Origin: Methanosarcina barkeri str. Wiesmoor
Lineage (GTDB): Archaea; Halobacteriota; Methanosarcinia; Methanosarcinales; Methanosarcinaceae
Assembly (NCBI RefSeq): GCF_000969985.1
Contig: NZ_CP009526.1
Coordinates: forward strand, 1,984,001-2,048,000
Length of the DNA: 64,000 bases
Direction of reading: 5' to 3'
Shown: piece by piece, positions 3,091 to 8,308 of the stretch
Position numbering within the stretch: position 1 is the stretch's first letter
How the letters are laid out: each line of letters opens with the position of its first letter
Notes under the pieces: model-generated
Told to the model about the DNA's origin: nothing
Databases searched by the model: none
The model's input: the letters and a program-made list of their open reading frames with translations, nothing else
Translations under genes and position numbers: made by a program

Positions 3091-4467
3091 TCAAACTCTC
3101 CCATATTTGTCTTCAAGCCTTTCAATATCGTCTTCTCCAATATAGTCTCCCTGTGCGATCTCAATGAAAACAAGGTTTTGACTGCCTATATTCTTAATTC
3201 GATGTATCTCATTTACCGGAAGATCGACCGAATCTCCAGGAAGAACCCTTATTTCATTCCCGTTTTTAACTACAAGACCCTCTCCACTGATTATGTACCA
3301 GTGCTCGCTTCGATGAAAATGGCGCTGGAGTGAGATTTCGCCCTGAGGAAGAACAGTAAGGCTTTTGACCTTATATCCAGGCCTCTGCCTGAGCACTTCA
3401 TAAAAGCCCCAGGGCCTTTCTTCCTCACGTTTACATTTTTCGAGGATGGTCTCGTACACTTTAATATAATCATCTACCATCCTGTCAACCGAAAAACGTT
3501 TTTCTACGTTTTCCCTGCATTTTTTGCGGGATATGGAGCCAAGTTTTTGCACAGCTTCGGCAGCTTCCTCAACACTATTTACGAGAAATCCAGTCTCTCC
3601 GTCCCGGATAAGCTCGGGCATTGAACCCCTGTTCATTGCAATTACCGGCGTACCGCTGGCCATAGCTTCAACTACGCCAATCCCGAAAGCCTCTTCATAA
3701 TTAATCATGTGAAGCAAAGCATATGCATTTGACAGGAGTTCCTTCTTAAACTCAGGATCGACATGCCCTTCGTAAATAATCTGTTTATTGTCCAGATGGG
3801 GCTGGACTTCTTTTTCAAAATAAGCTTGATCCGCAATGAAGCCAGCAATTCTAAGTTTTCTGCCAGTTTTTTTTGCGACTTCTATTGCTTCCCTTACGCC
3901 TTTGTCTTTATGCAGGCGTGATAAAAAGAGTAGATAATCCTGCGGTTTTTCATTGAAATAAAAGCTTCCTATGTCAATTCCGTGACGAACCGTTGCTATA
4001 TAGTCGAGATCACGGCATCTGTAGGCATCACTTATGGATACGTAAAAAGTTTTATTATTGTACTTTTTATATACAGGCAAAATTTTCCGTGAAGAAATAC
4101 CATGGATCGTTGTTACAACAGGCGTATCGACAAGGGCACTGTAGGTCAAAGGAAGATAATCGAAATGATTATGAATTATATCGAATTCCTTTGCTCTCTC
4201 GAAAACTTCTGAGATATGAAGGCCTTCATACACTTTTCTGATCATATCCTTATCTTCTTCATAAGGTCTCGGACATACAGCATGAAGTTTCGCTGCTGTG
4301 TGAGAGTCCGCTGTCGCAAATAGTGTAACGTCAATACCCCTTTTTACCAGTCCTTCAGTTAATAAGGATACAATAGATTCCCAGGGACCATACTTTTTAG
4401 GTGGCGTGCTCCAGGCAATCGGAGACAACATTGCAATTCTTATATTAATACCCCCAAAATCACTCAC
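3091..4467 (-). CDS. GT4-type glycosyltransferase fused to a C-terminal mannose-6-phosphate isomerase-like cupin
   Basis: Residues 1 to about 340 are a GT-B glycosyltransferase of the GT4 type: N-terminal 'MLSPIAWSTPPKKYGPWE', 'HNHFDY', the acceptor-domain 'LFLSRLHKDKGV' and the sugar-nucleotide motif 'EEAFGIGVVEAMASGTPVIA'. From about residue 350 a cupin follows ('RPWGFYEVL', 'SLQRHFHRSEHWYIISGEG', 'GDSVDLPVNEIHRIKN'), as in the C-terminal half of bacterial ManC or type II mannose-6-phosphate isomerases. This suggests mannose chemistry but does not prove it. It is the last gene of a minus-strand operon with the GH130 protein and a second glycosyltransferase. The start is uncertain: the GTG at 4467 is used here, but a GGGGGT site lies 6 nt before an ATA codon at the point where homologues start ('IRIAMLSPIAW'). 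Confidence 0.85.
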   Translation of the reverse strand: MSDFGGINIRIAMLSPIAWSTPPKKYGPWESIVSLLTEGLVKRGIDVTLFATADSHTAAKLHAVCPRPYEEDKDMIRKVYEGLHISEVFERAKEFDIIHNHFDYLPLTYSALVDTPVVTTIHGISSRKILPVYKKYNNKTFYVSISDAYRCRDLDYIATVRHGIDIGSFYFNEKPQDYLLFLSRLHKDKGVREAIEVAKKTGRKLRIAGFIADQAYFEKEVQPHLDNKQIIYEGHVDPEFKKELLSNAYALLHMINYEEAFGIGVVEAMASGTPVIAMNRGSMPELIRDGETGFLVNSVEEAAEAVQKLGSISRKKCRENVEKRFSVDRMVDDYIKVYETILEKCKREEERPWGFYEVLRQRPGYKVKSLTVLPQGEISLQRHFHRSEHWYIISGEGLVVKNGNEIRVLPGDSVDLPVNEIHRIKNIGSQNLVFIEIAQGDYIGEDDIERLEDKYGRV

Positions 4468-4599
4468 ATCCCCAAACTTATTTTATTTTTTACATTTCAA
4501 CTTTCAGCATTTAATTTTGAGCTTTAATGATTAATTTTTAATTTTTAACTTTAATTTCTAATTTTAACTTTAATTTCTAATTTTTAACTTTGATTTATT

Positions 4600-5634
4600 T
4601 CATTTCAACTTTGAATAGCCTCTCTTTGGATCGGTGGAACTTTCTATATCTTCTTCAAACCACCGGCAGTACTCATCAGGGCACTGCTTTTCCGGGCACT
4701 CGTGGATATATTTCAGAACATCGCGTACTTTTGCGGTAGCTAATGATACTGAGGTATCTGCACTCCCGTAATAAATACGAATTTCATCTCCCGCAAGTAC
4801 CCATCCGCAGGGGAAAACAACGTCGTTTACGTCTCCGCTGCGTTCGTACATTTCACGCGGTCCGAAAACCCAGCCTTCAGATCTGTGAAGTACTTTCCTA
4901 GGATCATCAGGATCAAGAAGAGCAAGTCCAAGCCGGTAACTTGCCTTAGCCGTTGTCTGGCGTACTCCGTGGTACATAATTAACCACCCGTCGGATACAC
5001 GGATTGGCTGTGGAGACAGGCCTATTTTGTTCGCGTCCCACCATCCACCTTCTCTGGCATACAGAAGAACCTCATGCTCTCCCCAGTATTTCATATCAGG
5101 TGAAAAGGAAATCCAGATGTTTGCTTTTGCGCCGCTTATTAAAGATACAGGCCTGTGTAACATTGCCCATCTGCCGTTAAACCTTACAGGAAAAACCGCA
5201 GCGTCCTTGTTTTCAGGAGGTAGGGTAGCTCCTATTCGATCAAAATTTCGGAAGTCATCGGTAAAGGCAAGTGCAGTTAAAGGTCCTGAATCCGAAAAAG
5301 CCGTATATGCCACAGCCCACTTTTCCATCTCATCTATATAAGTTATGCGTGGGTCTTCGATACCGTATATCTCTTCAGGGTAGCCTACAGGATCAGGAGC
5401 AAAGGTTGGTTCAGGATCAATTTCCCAGCCATAAATTCCATTTTTACTCCTTGCTATTGTAAAGTGAGAAAAGCCCCTGTGATCTTCGACTCTGACCAGT
5501 AATAGGGTAGTGCCATCAACTATAGCAGCTGCAGGATTAAAAACTGAATGGGCCCTATAGGGCCACTCGTCAACGGTTAATATAGGATTCCTATCGTATC
5601 TTACAAATAACTCCCCATGGTCTTTCCAGATCAT
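4600..5634 (-). CDS. GH130-family glycoside phosphorylase/hydrolase-like protein
   Basis: The 344-residue protein has the five-bladed propeller pattern of the GH130 (former DUF377) family: 'RYDRNPILTVDEWPYRAHSVFNP' near the N-terminus, 'LLLVRVEDHRG', 'YGIEDPRITYID', 'KDAAVFPV' and late 'VFPCGWVL...IRIYYGSADT'. Characterised members phosphorolyse or hydrolyse beta-mannosides, often beta-1,4- or beta-1,2-linked. Asp in 'GIEDPRIT' is the usual catalytic acid position. No signal peptide is present, so it should act in the cytoplasm. It sits between two glycosyltransferase genes on the same strand, which suggests turnover or synthesis of a mannose-containing oligosaccharide. The substrate is inference. 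A GGGGATGAG ribosome-binding site precedes the ATG at 5634. Confidence 0.85.
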   Translation of the reverse strand: MIWKDHGELFVRYDRNPILTVDEWPYRAHSVFNPAAAIVDGTTLLLVRVEDHRGFSHFTIARSKNGIYGWEIDPEPTFAPDPVGYPEEIYGIEDPRITYIDEMEKWAVAYTAFSDSGPLTALAFTDDFRNFDRIGATLPPENKDAAVFPVRFNGRWAMLHRPVSLISGAKANIWISFSPDMKYWGEHEVLLYAREGGWWDANKIGLSPQPIRVSDGWLIMYHGVRQTTAKASYRLGLALLDPDDPRKVLHRSEGWVFGPREMYERSGDVNDVVFPCGWVLAGDEIRIYYGSADTSVSLATAKVRDVLKYIHECPEKQCPDEYCRWFEEDIESSTDPKRGYSKLK

Positions 5635-5635
5635 A

Positions 5636-5870
5636 TTATTCTCTCATCCCCCAAATCATGCTATTTTTACTCCCCATATCTATTATTCTCTTCTTCCTCA
5701 GATCATGTTATTTTTACTCCCCATATCTATTATTCTCTTATCCCTCAGATCATGTTATTCTTACTCCCCATATCTATTATTCTCTTATCCCTCAGATCAT
5801 GTTATTCTTACTCCCCATATCTATTATTCTCTTATCCCTTAGATCATGTTATCCTCTCATTCCCATATCA
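5636..5870. repeat. tandem repeat, about 47-bp unit, about 5 copies
   Basis: A pyrimidine-rich plus-strand unit with the cores CCCCATATCTATTATTCTC and CAGATCATGTTATT repeats about five times with small differences. It fills most of the gap between the GH130 gene and the upstream glycosyltransferase gene, inside what looks like one operon. The continuous plus-strand reading frames here are a by-product of the repeat. Confidence 0.85.
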
Positions 5871-5914
5871 TACTCTCTCACTCTCCAGATCGTATGCCCT
5901 TTTACTTTCTTCTC

Positions 5915-8308
5915 TCATTCAACTTGATTTGCTGAAAAAAAGCTCCTTCTTTTCTGTAGGATTCTGTCATCTACCTCATCGCTTACCCTGGACTGCAATA
6001 TCGTACTGAAGGCTTTATCCATGTGCTTGTTTAAAGAGCTTAAAGCCATAAGGAAGCAAATTACGGATTCCGCACCCTGGTTGCAATTCATACCATCGCG
6101 GTTGAGTCCATCACAGACCGCGCCTGTGGAATAATCGTACATAACAGTTCGCAAACGATTTCTTCCAAGGAAGTATTCAAACGAATATCTTGCAAGTTCC
6201 AGATATTTTTTATCATGTACAATTTCATAAGCTGAAACATAAGCTTGAGTCAGATAACCTGCTTCGATTGGTTGCTGGTCAAAAATAGGCTTTTCTCCAT
6301 TGTAAGAGTACCAGCCCTGGTTTCCAACCATGTCAAAAAAGTCACCTATCCACTGAATATCAGTAAGAAAATCCAGGGTGTCAAGGCCAATCTTACGATA
6401 AGTTCGATCTTTGGTGTAATTGTATGCCAGTAAAAGTGATTCACTAAGTTTTGCATTACTATAAGTTACTGTAGGTTCGAACCAGTTCCAATCTTCTTTA
6501 TGGTTAGCCTCATATAAGTCGACCAGAGAATTCGCGTGGCTGACAAATATGGATTCAAAGATATCTTTACTTACAAGGGAGTCTACGGATTTGATTTCAT
6601 CCCTGCGCGAATTAAAGACTGATTCAAATTCATCGGTATCCACACCTGTCCTGAGCATTTCGTACAGGCCGCACATGGTATAGGCTTTTGCCCTTGGATA
6701 GTTAAGCTTCTCCATCTCAGGCCTGGCTTTGCTTATAAGGGTATGGGCAAGCGTGCGTATATTTTTAGACAGGTAAGGGCAGCTTACCACATGCCCAAGT
6801 CCGTAGATAGCACGTCCGAGGGTATCCTCACTTCCCTTCTCATCCAAAAATTCCCGTTTATAGTTCATGAAGTTGTGGAAATGCCCCGTGGTGGTCTGGG
6901 CATGTTCAAGAAAACTCAGATATATTGTAATTAACTTCCAGAACTCCTCAGCTTTTTTCTGGTTATCTATTAACTGTGTCAGTACAACAAGAGCTCGGCC
7001 TACGTCATCAGTACTGTACCCGTAATGACGAGCCGGCACACCAAGATTGGTATGCTGAATAATGCCTACGTCGTCAGTTAATAATTTCAGGTAATCAAGT
7101 TTTACTTCAGGAAGCTGGTTTGGAAGGAAATTAAACTTTTTTAAGGTGGAGTAGGCACTGTAATTCTTTAAAGCTCTGGTGAAAACCTTGTTATATTGTT
7201 TACCTACATTTTTCCATGTCATTTTTCGACCGAAATCATATGCCTTTTTGCGCATATTATCACACTCTTCTGGATTTTCTATTAAATACAAAAGAGATTT
7301 TTTAAAACCACCTGTGTCTCCGAAATCTACAAGCAAACCGCGATTATCAGAAAGCATTTCCTGAGCATACCAGTATGGAGTGGAAACTATTGCTTTTCCC
7401 ATACCAATTGCATAGGTCAGAGCGCCGCTTACTATCTGCTCTCTGGAAAGGTAGGGAGATACGTAAATATCACTGGCAAGGATATAATTACAAAGTTCTT
7501 CTTTCTCGACAAATTTGTCATGGAATACTACATTTTTTTCAAGTCCGAGTTCTGAAACCTTATTCTGAAGGTATTGCCTGTATGTTTCTCCAAAGTTCTT
7601 TTTAATTACAGGATGCGTAGCACCCAGTATGAGGTAAACGAGGTCAGGGTACTGGCTTATGACTTCAGGAAGAGCATCAAGCATACTTTCGATACCTTTA
7701 TTCTGGCTCAGCAGGCCGAAAGTTAAGACAAGAGGAGATCCCTTCAGGTTCAATCTATTTCTATACTTACTGCAGTTATTAAAAGGGTAATCCGGTACTC
7801 CGTGAAAGATTAATTCTATTTTATCCTCGGGAACTTTATAAACGTCTTTTAACATCTCGACTGCAGTCTGGCTCATCACAATTAGCTTTTCGGAATACCT
7901 GATGAGTTTTTCCGTGGATGCTCGATACTCAGGTTCAGGTTCCCGGATTACAGTATGCATCGTGCTTATCACAGGTTTGTTGATTCCTGAAAGAAGAGCA
8001 AAAATATAGTCTCCCGCATTTCCCCAGAAAAGCCCAAATTCGTGCTGCAGGCATACGATATCAATATCAGATTGGTTTATATAATCCGCAGCCCGGTAAT
8101 AATCCTCTATCCTGTCCCTCTGTATTTGAAAAACGACTTCTTCAGGATAATTATAGGTCTCAGAGGGATCGTTCAAAGCAATTACTTCACAATGAACGTC
8201 ATTACCTTCTCCGGGCATTGAATTTAAAAGATCGGATGTGAATGTGGCAATCCCACACTCTTTTGGAATATAAGTTCCTATAAATAACACTTTCAATTGT
8301 TTATTCAA
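5915..8308 (-). CDS. GT4 glycosyltransferase with a large C-terminal helical-barrel domain, 797 aa
   Basis: Residues 1 to about 385 form a GT-B glycosyltransferase: 'LFIGTYIPKECGIATFTSDL' at the N-terminus, 'LQHEFGLFWG', 'VLTFGLLSQNKGIESMLDAL', and 'ASDIYVSPYLSREQIVSGAL' in place of the usual E(x7)E loop. The remaining 400 residues are rich in Trp, Tyr and helices ('GHFHNFMNYKREFLDEKGSE', 'WYSYNGEKPIFDQQPIEAGY', 'NRDGMNCNQGAES') and resemble an (alpha/alpha)6 barrel-type domain often joined to such transferases. A TTG start is supported by GGGGGT 5 nt upstream. It is the first gene of the three-gene minus-strand operon. Predicted cytoplasmic. The exact sugar donor is unknown. Confidence 0.85.
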   Translation of the reverse strand: MNKQLKVLFIGTYIPKECGIATFTSDLLNSMPGEGNDVHCEVIALNDPSETYNYPEEVVFQIQRDRIEDYYRAADYINQSDIDIVCLQHEFGLFWGNAGDYIFALLSGINKPVISTMHTVIREPEPEYRASTEKLIRYSEKLIVMSQTAVEMLKDVYKVPEDKIELIFHGVPDYPFNNCSKYRNRLNLKGSPLVLTFGLLSQNKGIESMLDALPEVISQYPDLVYLILGATHPVIKKNFGETYRQYLQNKVSELGLEKNVVFHDKFVEKEELCNYILASDIYVSPYLSREQIVSGALTYAIGMGKAIVSTPYWYAQEMLSDNRGLLVDFGDTGGFKKSLLYLIENPEECDNMRKKAYDFGRKMTWKNVGKQYNKVFTRALKNYSAYSTLKKFNFLPNQLPEVKLDYLKLLTDDVGIIQHTNLGVPARHYGYSTDDVGRALVVLTQLIDNQKKAEEFWKLITIYLSFLEHAQTTTGHFHNFMNYKREFLDEKGSEDTLGRAIYGLGHVVSCPYLSKNIRTLAHTLISKARPEMEKLNYPRAKAYTMCGLYEMLRTGVDTDEFESVFNSRRDEIKSVDSLVSKDIFESIFVSHANSLVDLYEANHKEDWNWFEPTVTYSNAKLSESLLLAYNYTKDRTYRKIGLDTLDFLTDIQWIGDFFDMVGNQGWYSYNGEKPIFDQQPIEAGYLTQAYVSAYEIVHDKKYLELARYSFEYFLGRNRLRTVMYDYSTGAVCDGLNRDGMNCNQGAESVICFLMALSSLNKHMDKAFSTILQSRVSDEVDDRILQKRRSFFSANQVE

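Follow-up and report, generated by a model that had tools for sequence, protein, structure and literature searches.

Several described systems resemble in part the three-gene group analysed here, which lies at positions 3091-8308 of a 64,000-nucleotide stretch of the Methanosarcina barkeri str. Wiesmoor genome (contig NZ_CP009526.1, positions 1,984,001 to 2,048,000; hereafter the window). The group consists of a GT4 glycosyltransferase (GT) gene extended by a helical barrel (GT4AA), a GH130 gene and a second GT4 gene fused to a cupin (GT4c-cupin); this trio forms a conserved cassette whose probable task is the synthesis and trimming of a soluble, mannose-containing sugar within the cell. Published work is cited below from excerpts. 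In the Thermoanaerobacter cluster Teth514_1785-1796, GH130 β-1,2 phosphorylases stand beside a GT4 mannosyltransferase and ManC, which recalls the GH130-GT4 neighbourhood of the trio; unlike the trio, that cluster also holds ABC transporters and GH5, and the excerpt of its description mentions no barrel or cupin fusion (PMC4264767). The Leishmania mannogen system (GT108) is comparable with the role proposed here in that GH130-fold enzymes work in both directions on an intracellular β-1,2-mannan (PMC8950772, PMC3290622); the likeness is drawn from the published description and not from the GT108 sequence, and the excerpt names neither GT4 nor barrel partners (PMC8950772). ManT and MmpH, which serve the cytoplasmic methylmannose polysaccharide of mycobacteria, are a precedent for a pair of an extending GT and a cutting enzyme, although separate genes are found there, with methyltransferases in place of GH130 (PMC9883506). 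Finally, the GH130 enzyme Uhgb_MS, a mixed-linkage mannoside synthase, adds β-1,2-mannose to an α-1,2-mannoside from mannose 1-phosphate, a precedent for the GH130 step proposed below (PMC8950772).

The enzyme families of the trio are known. No description of such a cassette was found in the open-licence literature, as judged by the title or the start of the abstract, with supplements outside the search. Three long open reading frames (ORFs; called mechanically, at least 110 aa) lie on the minus strand within 3091-8308, in the order GT4AA, GH130 and GT4c-cupin:

5915..8308, minus strand: GT4AA gene, 797 aa, TTG start, GT-B glycosyltransferase domain plus (α/α)6 barrel (ORF, Pfam, structure models)
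7154..8308, minus strand: GT-B domain of GT4AA, residues 1-385, with invariant Lys204 and without a conserved canonical E-x7-E (alignments, model, fold matches)
5918..7123, minus strand: C-terminal helical domain of GT4AA, residues 396-797, (α/α)6 barrel with hydrolase-like acids (model, fold matches, conserved residues)
4600..5634, minus strand: GH130 gene, 344 aa, signature of a β-1,2-type mannoside phosphorylase (Pfam, residue alignment, tree)
3091..4467, minus strand: GT4c-cupin gene, 458 aa, GTG start, TeGSS-like GT4 plus type II phosphomannose-isomerase-like cupin (Pfam, structure match, alignment)
3109..3438, minus strand: cupin domain of GT4c-cupin, residues 344-453, MannoseP_isomer, with QxH, RxEHW and HR motifs kept (Pfam, motif comparison)
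5626..5906, no strand: array of 47-bp tandem repeats that separates GT4AA from GH130 and extends to the GH130 start codon (ORF list, repeat analysis)

Pfam assigned Glycos_transf_1 to GT4AA (4.6e-17, above the cut-off) and left about 400 residues without a confident family, assigned Glyco_hydro_130 to the 344-aa protein (188.7 bits, cut-off 26), and split GT4c-cupin into Glycos_transf_1 (8.2e-27) and MannoseP_isomer at residues 344-453 (113 bits, cut-off 23.6). The original prediction, made from the letters of the window, had named a GT4-cupin fusion, a GH130 protein and a GT4 with a helical domain of about 400 residues, and had called both fusions non-standard; the ORFs, Pfam and an AlphaFold model bear this out. 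The maximal hydropathy over 19 residues is 1.24 to 1.45 in the trio proteins and no membrane-type hydrophobic segment occurs, so that all three are predicted to be soluble, in line with the cytoplasmic location originally suggested. Neither the trio nor the three neighbouring ORFs scanned with Pfam contain a methyltransferase family, and thus the adjacent methyltransferases that define a methylmannose polysaccharide cluster were not found.

Of 30 Methanosarcina genomes, 23 have orthologues of all three genes together and in collinear arrangement, as judged by eye from three match lists. Broken copies occur in G005 and a decayed copy in G010, and the set is absent from G004, G009, G011, G017 and G026, of which G004 and G026 are given as 99% complete. 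Two copies are present in G008 and G027, and G013 has a second copy with a broken GT4-cupin gene; one in-frame stop was flagged in one GT4-cupin match each of G006, G008 and G027, full ORFs being seen in the latter two. Contigs were scanned with the helical domain alone, and the best 80 of 82 loci, restricted to either of two peptide patterns, were retained. These span Methanosarcinales, Nitrososphaerota, Bathyarchaeota, Thermodesulfobacteriota, Acidobacteriota, Chloroflexota, Bacteroidota and others. In 67 of the 80 (27/28 in Methanosarcinales, 40/52 elsewhere) a GH130 gene is found no more than 5 kb from the helical domain; among the 41 loci whose sequence extends 5 kb or more to either side, the figure is 37. 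With three GH130 genes in the 4.9-Mb window genome, a GH130 that near would be expected by chance in less than 1% of loci (arithmetic for this genome). The 67 loci led us to reject a chance neighbourhood, and because the pairing recurs across phyla the trio is a cassette, not a local accident, common to methanogens and distant bacteria. The genome-neighbourhood survey thus upholds the conserved unit that had been proposed. In 11 of the 80 loci the helical domain is a separate gene, which in nine directly follows a GT4 of the GT4x group (by eye), and this arrangement marks it as a unit. GT4c is present in 36 loci, with the cupin in 21, and bacterial GT4c-cupin fusions were seen in L077 and L130. 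Distribution is patchy: the helical domain was found in 5 of 146 genomes of the phylum. In two clusters of ANME-2 type (L028, 9186-15538, and L075) the cassette contains three distinct GH130 genes as well as an additional GT4 and a flavin-reductase-like gene. In L086, a contig labelled Bacteroidales, the GT4AA part is 84% identical to that of Methanosarcina, and the contig is probably mis-binned.

The window GH130 protein contains the motifs GIEDPR (Glu93-Asp94), PENKD (Lys143), MLHRP (Arg161) and NKIG (Lys203). The catalytic Asp of the family is Asp142 in BT3780 and Asp131 in BF0772; Glu instead of Tyr before it separates the GH130_NC enzymes, Lys at BT3780 position 199 marks β-1,2 enzymes, and hydrolases of the family are marked by missing basic phosphate-binding residues (PMC4599007). 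In the window protein the catalytic Asp is Asp94, and the ED pair is kept in all 81 aligned GH130 rows (by eye). Both β-1,2 markers are present, Glu93 and Lys143, and are shared with Lin0857, Teth514_1788 and Teth514_1789 (BT3780 is not in the alignment); these three read EDPR or EDAR plus NKD, and the β-1,4 enzymes TM1225, RaMP2 and Uhgb_MP read YDPR plus FNRNG. The marker Lys occurs in 77 of 81 rows (by eye). Arg161 and Lys203 align with Arg and Lys/Arg of solved phosphorylases, at positions that we take to be phosphate-binding. Judged from these residues, we would say that the enzyme points to the β-1,2 phosphorylase type; overall similarity does not decide, and its match to Uhgb_MS (147.5 bits) is no closer than those to other characterised GH130s. 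In 18 of the 81 rows, which all come from Bacteroidota or Sphingomonadales, Gln stands at the Lys203 position (by eye). The cassette GH130s of L100, L103, L106, L112 and similar Bacteroidota loci, about 490-620 aa long with Gln at the presumed phosphate-site Lys, may not be phosphorylases.

In a GH130 tree of 51 rows (45 picked from the 81 aligned rows plus 6 reference fragments), the Thermoanaerobacter enzymes fall in a different clade from the window protein. Other GH130 clades are linked to the same barrel too: the archaeal GH130s of L093 and L102 join both Teth514 enzymes (support 86/85). This grouping, and what has been proposed in print for a cluster that combines two GH130 genes with ManC and a GT4 (PMC4264767), would suit a salvage of imported β-1,2-oligomannan, in which GH130 yields mannose 1-phosphate for GDP-mannose. 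The window trio is dominated by two GTs and has neither a transporter nor a secreted hydrolase, and we consider salvage quite unlikely.

Among solved structures, the GT part of GT4c is closest to the glucosylsucrose synthase TeGSS (7fg9), which it matches across residues 6-344 with an E-value of 5.6e-85. All 37 rows keep Tyr26, Arg184, Lys189, Glu259 and Glu267 (residue counts include alignment gaps and are taken over 69 GT4AA and 37 GT4c rows, the window's own included). When aligned with TeGSS, these residues match Tyr18, Arg179, Lys184 and the Glu residues of its catalytic centre (PMC9909042). With homology over the whole GT part and the catalytic residues kept, GT4c is predicted to belong to the TeGSS family; unlike GT4c-cupin, TeGSS has no cupin in the aligned chain.

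The modelled GT domain of GT4AA (predicted local distance difference test, pLDDT, 92) has a GT-B fold nearest to sucrose-phosphate synthase (SPS), MshA, HepE and PimA (Z 36.5 to 34.4), with ManT also among the matches (Z 32.5). No donor can be read from these matches, SPS, MshA, HepE, PimA and BshA lying within about 2 to 3 Z units of one another. All 69 rows keep Lys204. Since the GT4AA profile and fold reach SPS among others, and GT4c retains the catalytic residues of TeGSS, the trio might instead make a small mannose- or glucose-containing osmolyte, comparable to the glucosylsucroses of TeGSS, with GH130 adjusting its level. We regard such a compatible solute as unlikely: SPS is just one of several near-equal matches, and a small solute needs neither a cutting barrel nor a phosphorylase.

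The AlphaFold model of the C-terminal domain of GT4AA (mean pLDDT 87, predicted template modelling score 0.85) is almost entirely α-helical and forms an (α/α)6-type barrel. It is closest to 7tem (YPO2471; Z 38.2, 336 aligned, root-mean-square deviation 2.5), on which no paper was found in the open-licence literature, followed by epimerases (Z about 29), GH76 (about 25 to 27) and MmpH (25.8); it thus resembles MmpH in fold but is nearer to 7tem and the epimerases. Asp39, Asp40, Asp338 and Glu352 (barrel numbering) are invariant in 52 of 52 rows. No His is invariant, the best being His24 in 47 of 52 rows, and the conserved catalytic His pair of the AGE/cellobiose 2-epimerase family is missing. 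A sugar epimerase was therefore rejected, though epimerase folds rank second. Because of its invariant acids and the lack of an invariant His the barrel looks hydrolase-like, and we read it as a putative glycoside hydrolase or transglycosidase.

The cupin of GT4c-cupin has the motifs QxH, RxEHW and HR in common with the genome's own ManC. These we take to be the metal-site motifs of the type II phosphomannose isomerase cupin, and the domain is accordingly a predicted member of that type. GT4c-cupin is below the cut-off of TIGR01479 (GMP_PMI bifunctional), with 113.2 vs 372.95 bits in the cupin part only. In a Bacillota metagenome-assembled genome (MAG; locus L077) the genes are ordered GT4, barrel, GT4c-cupin, ManC, PMM, GH130, where ManC is GDP-mannose pyrophosphorylase and PMM phosphomannomutase; this ManC matches nucleotidyl transferase and β-helix families and no cupin family. 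Homologues of ManC and PMM also follow GT4AA in L087 and lie near a small cupin ORF in L097. The mannose basis of the original prediction is consequently supported in part, by the β-1,2 markers of GH130, the isomerase-type cupin and the ManC and PMM genes of L077.

Domains, conservation, residue sets, co-localisation and predicted solubility could be read from the sequence; the donor, the linkages, the direction of the GH130 reaction, the activities of barrel and cupin and the purpose of the product we infer as follows. GT4 enzymes are retaining and make α bonds. GH130 enzymes invert and act on β-mannosides (PMC8950772), so direct recycling of the GT4 product by GH130 was rejected on stereochemical grounds, and the earlier idea of one glycan being "made and recycled" does not hold as stated. 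Since GT4 bonds are α and GH130 substrates β, GH130 must act on a bond other than those made by the GT4s, or be a synthase, and a product with both bond types is the simplest consistent scheme. Our best explanation, which we hold tentatively, is therefore that the cassette works in the cytoplasm and makes a soluble mannoside in which α and β bonds are combined. GT4c, as a TeGSS-like retaining enzyme, and the GT domain of GT4AA would build an α-linked oligosaccharide with a nucleotide sugar as donor, most probably GDP-mannose. The fused barrel would cut or trim it, perhaps freeing primers as MmpH does for the mycobacterial polysaccharide. GH130 would reversibly add and remove β-1,2-mannose via α-mannose 1-phosphate and phosphate, and the cupin would convert fructose 6-phosphate to mannose 6-phosphate beside the transferase.

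Several observations weigh against this explanation. GH130 falls below both NCBIfam equivalog cut-offs for β-1,2-mannobiose phosphorylase (231.2 vs 550 and 188.3 vs 450 bits), and its best PDB score is that of the β-1,4 enzyme TM1225. It belongs to its own clade of 24 rows (support 100/99) without a characterised member, in a tree with unresolved deep forks and six reference fragments; the placement does not contradict a mannoside basis, as the characterised GH130 functions described in a review are β-mannoside activities with transfer of mannose (PMC8950772). TeGSS, the nearest solved relative of GT4c, uses UDP-glucose (PMC9909042). In 13 of the 80 loci no GH130 is nearby, and for four of these the sequence reaches 5 kb or more to either side. 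The genome has a candidate isomerase domain besides the fused cupin, because another ManC with a cupin is encoded elsewhere (L131). The trio itself gives no evidence on transport or export either way. GT4AA lacks E-x7-E and has a Q..SG[AT]L pattern instead; Glu290 is found in 40 of the 69 rows, and position 298 has no Glu. E-x7-E is a typical motif of GT4 enzymes, and because it is replaced the mechanism of GT4AA is not to be taken for granted. If GT4AA were not retaining, a simpler scheme could apply, in which GH130 acts directly on its bonds.

As to the role of the product, the evidence points in different directions. A flippase-like gene (Polysacc_synt/MatE) occurs in six cassette loci, all of Methanosarcinales, and adjoins GT4AA in Methanolobus. 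GT4 enzymes often serve surface glycans, and the two GT4s might assemble part of an exported or lipid-linked glycan, which GH130 edits or from which it salvages β-mannose. We consider this doubtful, as flippase, polymerase and membrane anchor are all missing from the window trio and the other 74 loci lack a flippase homologue; the phosphorylases are described as cytoplasmic and exo-acting (PMC4599007). The storage role in the original prediction is not supported as stated: TeGSS, the solved GT4 relative that matches best, makes oligosaccharides primed with sucrose, and the flippase-like gene adjoins the cluster in some relatives. A more speculative form of the soluble mannoside, which we advance with considerable reserve, is a prokaryotic counterpart of mannogen: a cytoplasmic β-1,2-mannan or β-1,2-capped α-mannoside kept as a reserve in methanogens and many bacteria. 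Here GT4c and GT4AA would make the primer, GH130 would lengthen and shorten it with mannose 1-phosphate, the barrel would reset chain length and the cupin would feed in fructose 6-phosphate; the Bacteroidota GH130s with Gln at the Lys203 position perhaps use another donor.

Most discussion of GH130 treats it as a catabolic family that acts on imported mannosides. If our explanation is true, its stable pairing with two glycosyltransferases and the barrel, seen in methanogens, Thermodesulfobacteriota, Acidobacteriota and Bacteroidota, would place GH130 in an intracellular biosynthetic or storage pathway. Two fusions in the cassette, GT4-barrel and GT4-isomerase, are open to testing, and the cassette is a candidate source of an uncharacterised glycan in Methanosarcina, a genus in which gene deletion is feasible.

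The second-copy GH130s of the genus, 74-80% identical to the window protein, adjoin a glycogen-debranching enzyme in 12 of the 14 loci compared. These 12 are the locus of the window genome (L025) and 11 out of another 12 retrieved for this comparison; L024, which completes the 14, holds a lone copy. In L137 the two genes are about 1.2 kb apart. This ties the GH130 family of the genus to storage-glycan genes, without identifying the product of the trio. It would also suit a GH130 working in α-glucan (glycogen) metabolism rather than on mannosides, as would the expression of intracellular GH130 and GH133 by soil Nitrososphaera MAGs (PMC11131427). Characterised GH130s, by contrast, transfer mannose (PMC8950772), and no debranching homologue was detected in the 80 cassette loci at 1e-10; we find this alternative very improbable, and the debranching-enzyme/GH130 pair was rejected as part of the trio cassette. 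In L025 (5859-8984; G000:C2 ~2883858-2886983) a GH130 paralogue that shares 77% identity with the window protein comes directly after the debranching gene. The third GH130 of the genome (L024, 7954-8970) shows stop codons in its extended match and looks decaying or shortened at its end.

The gap between GT4AA and GH130 is 280 bp, compared with -3 to 12 bp in many relatives, and is filled by the array at 5626-5906, about 4.8 copies of the 47-bp unit. By eye, the units look like the ribosome-binding and start region of GH130, as if amplified there. We regard the plus-strand ORF at 5617-6009, which the array creates, as spurious. Elsewhere in the window, the ORF at 70-729 has repeated YVTN-like motifs (by eye) of the β-propeller surface-protein type.

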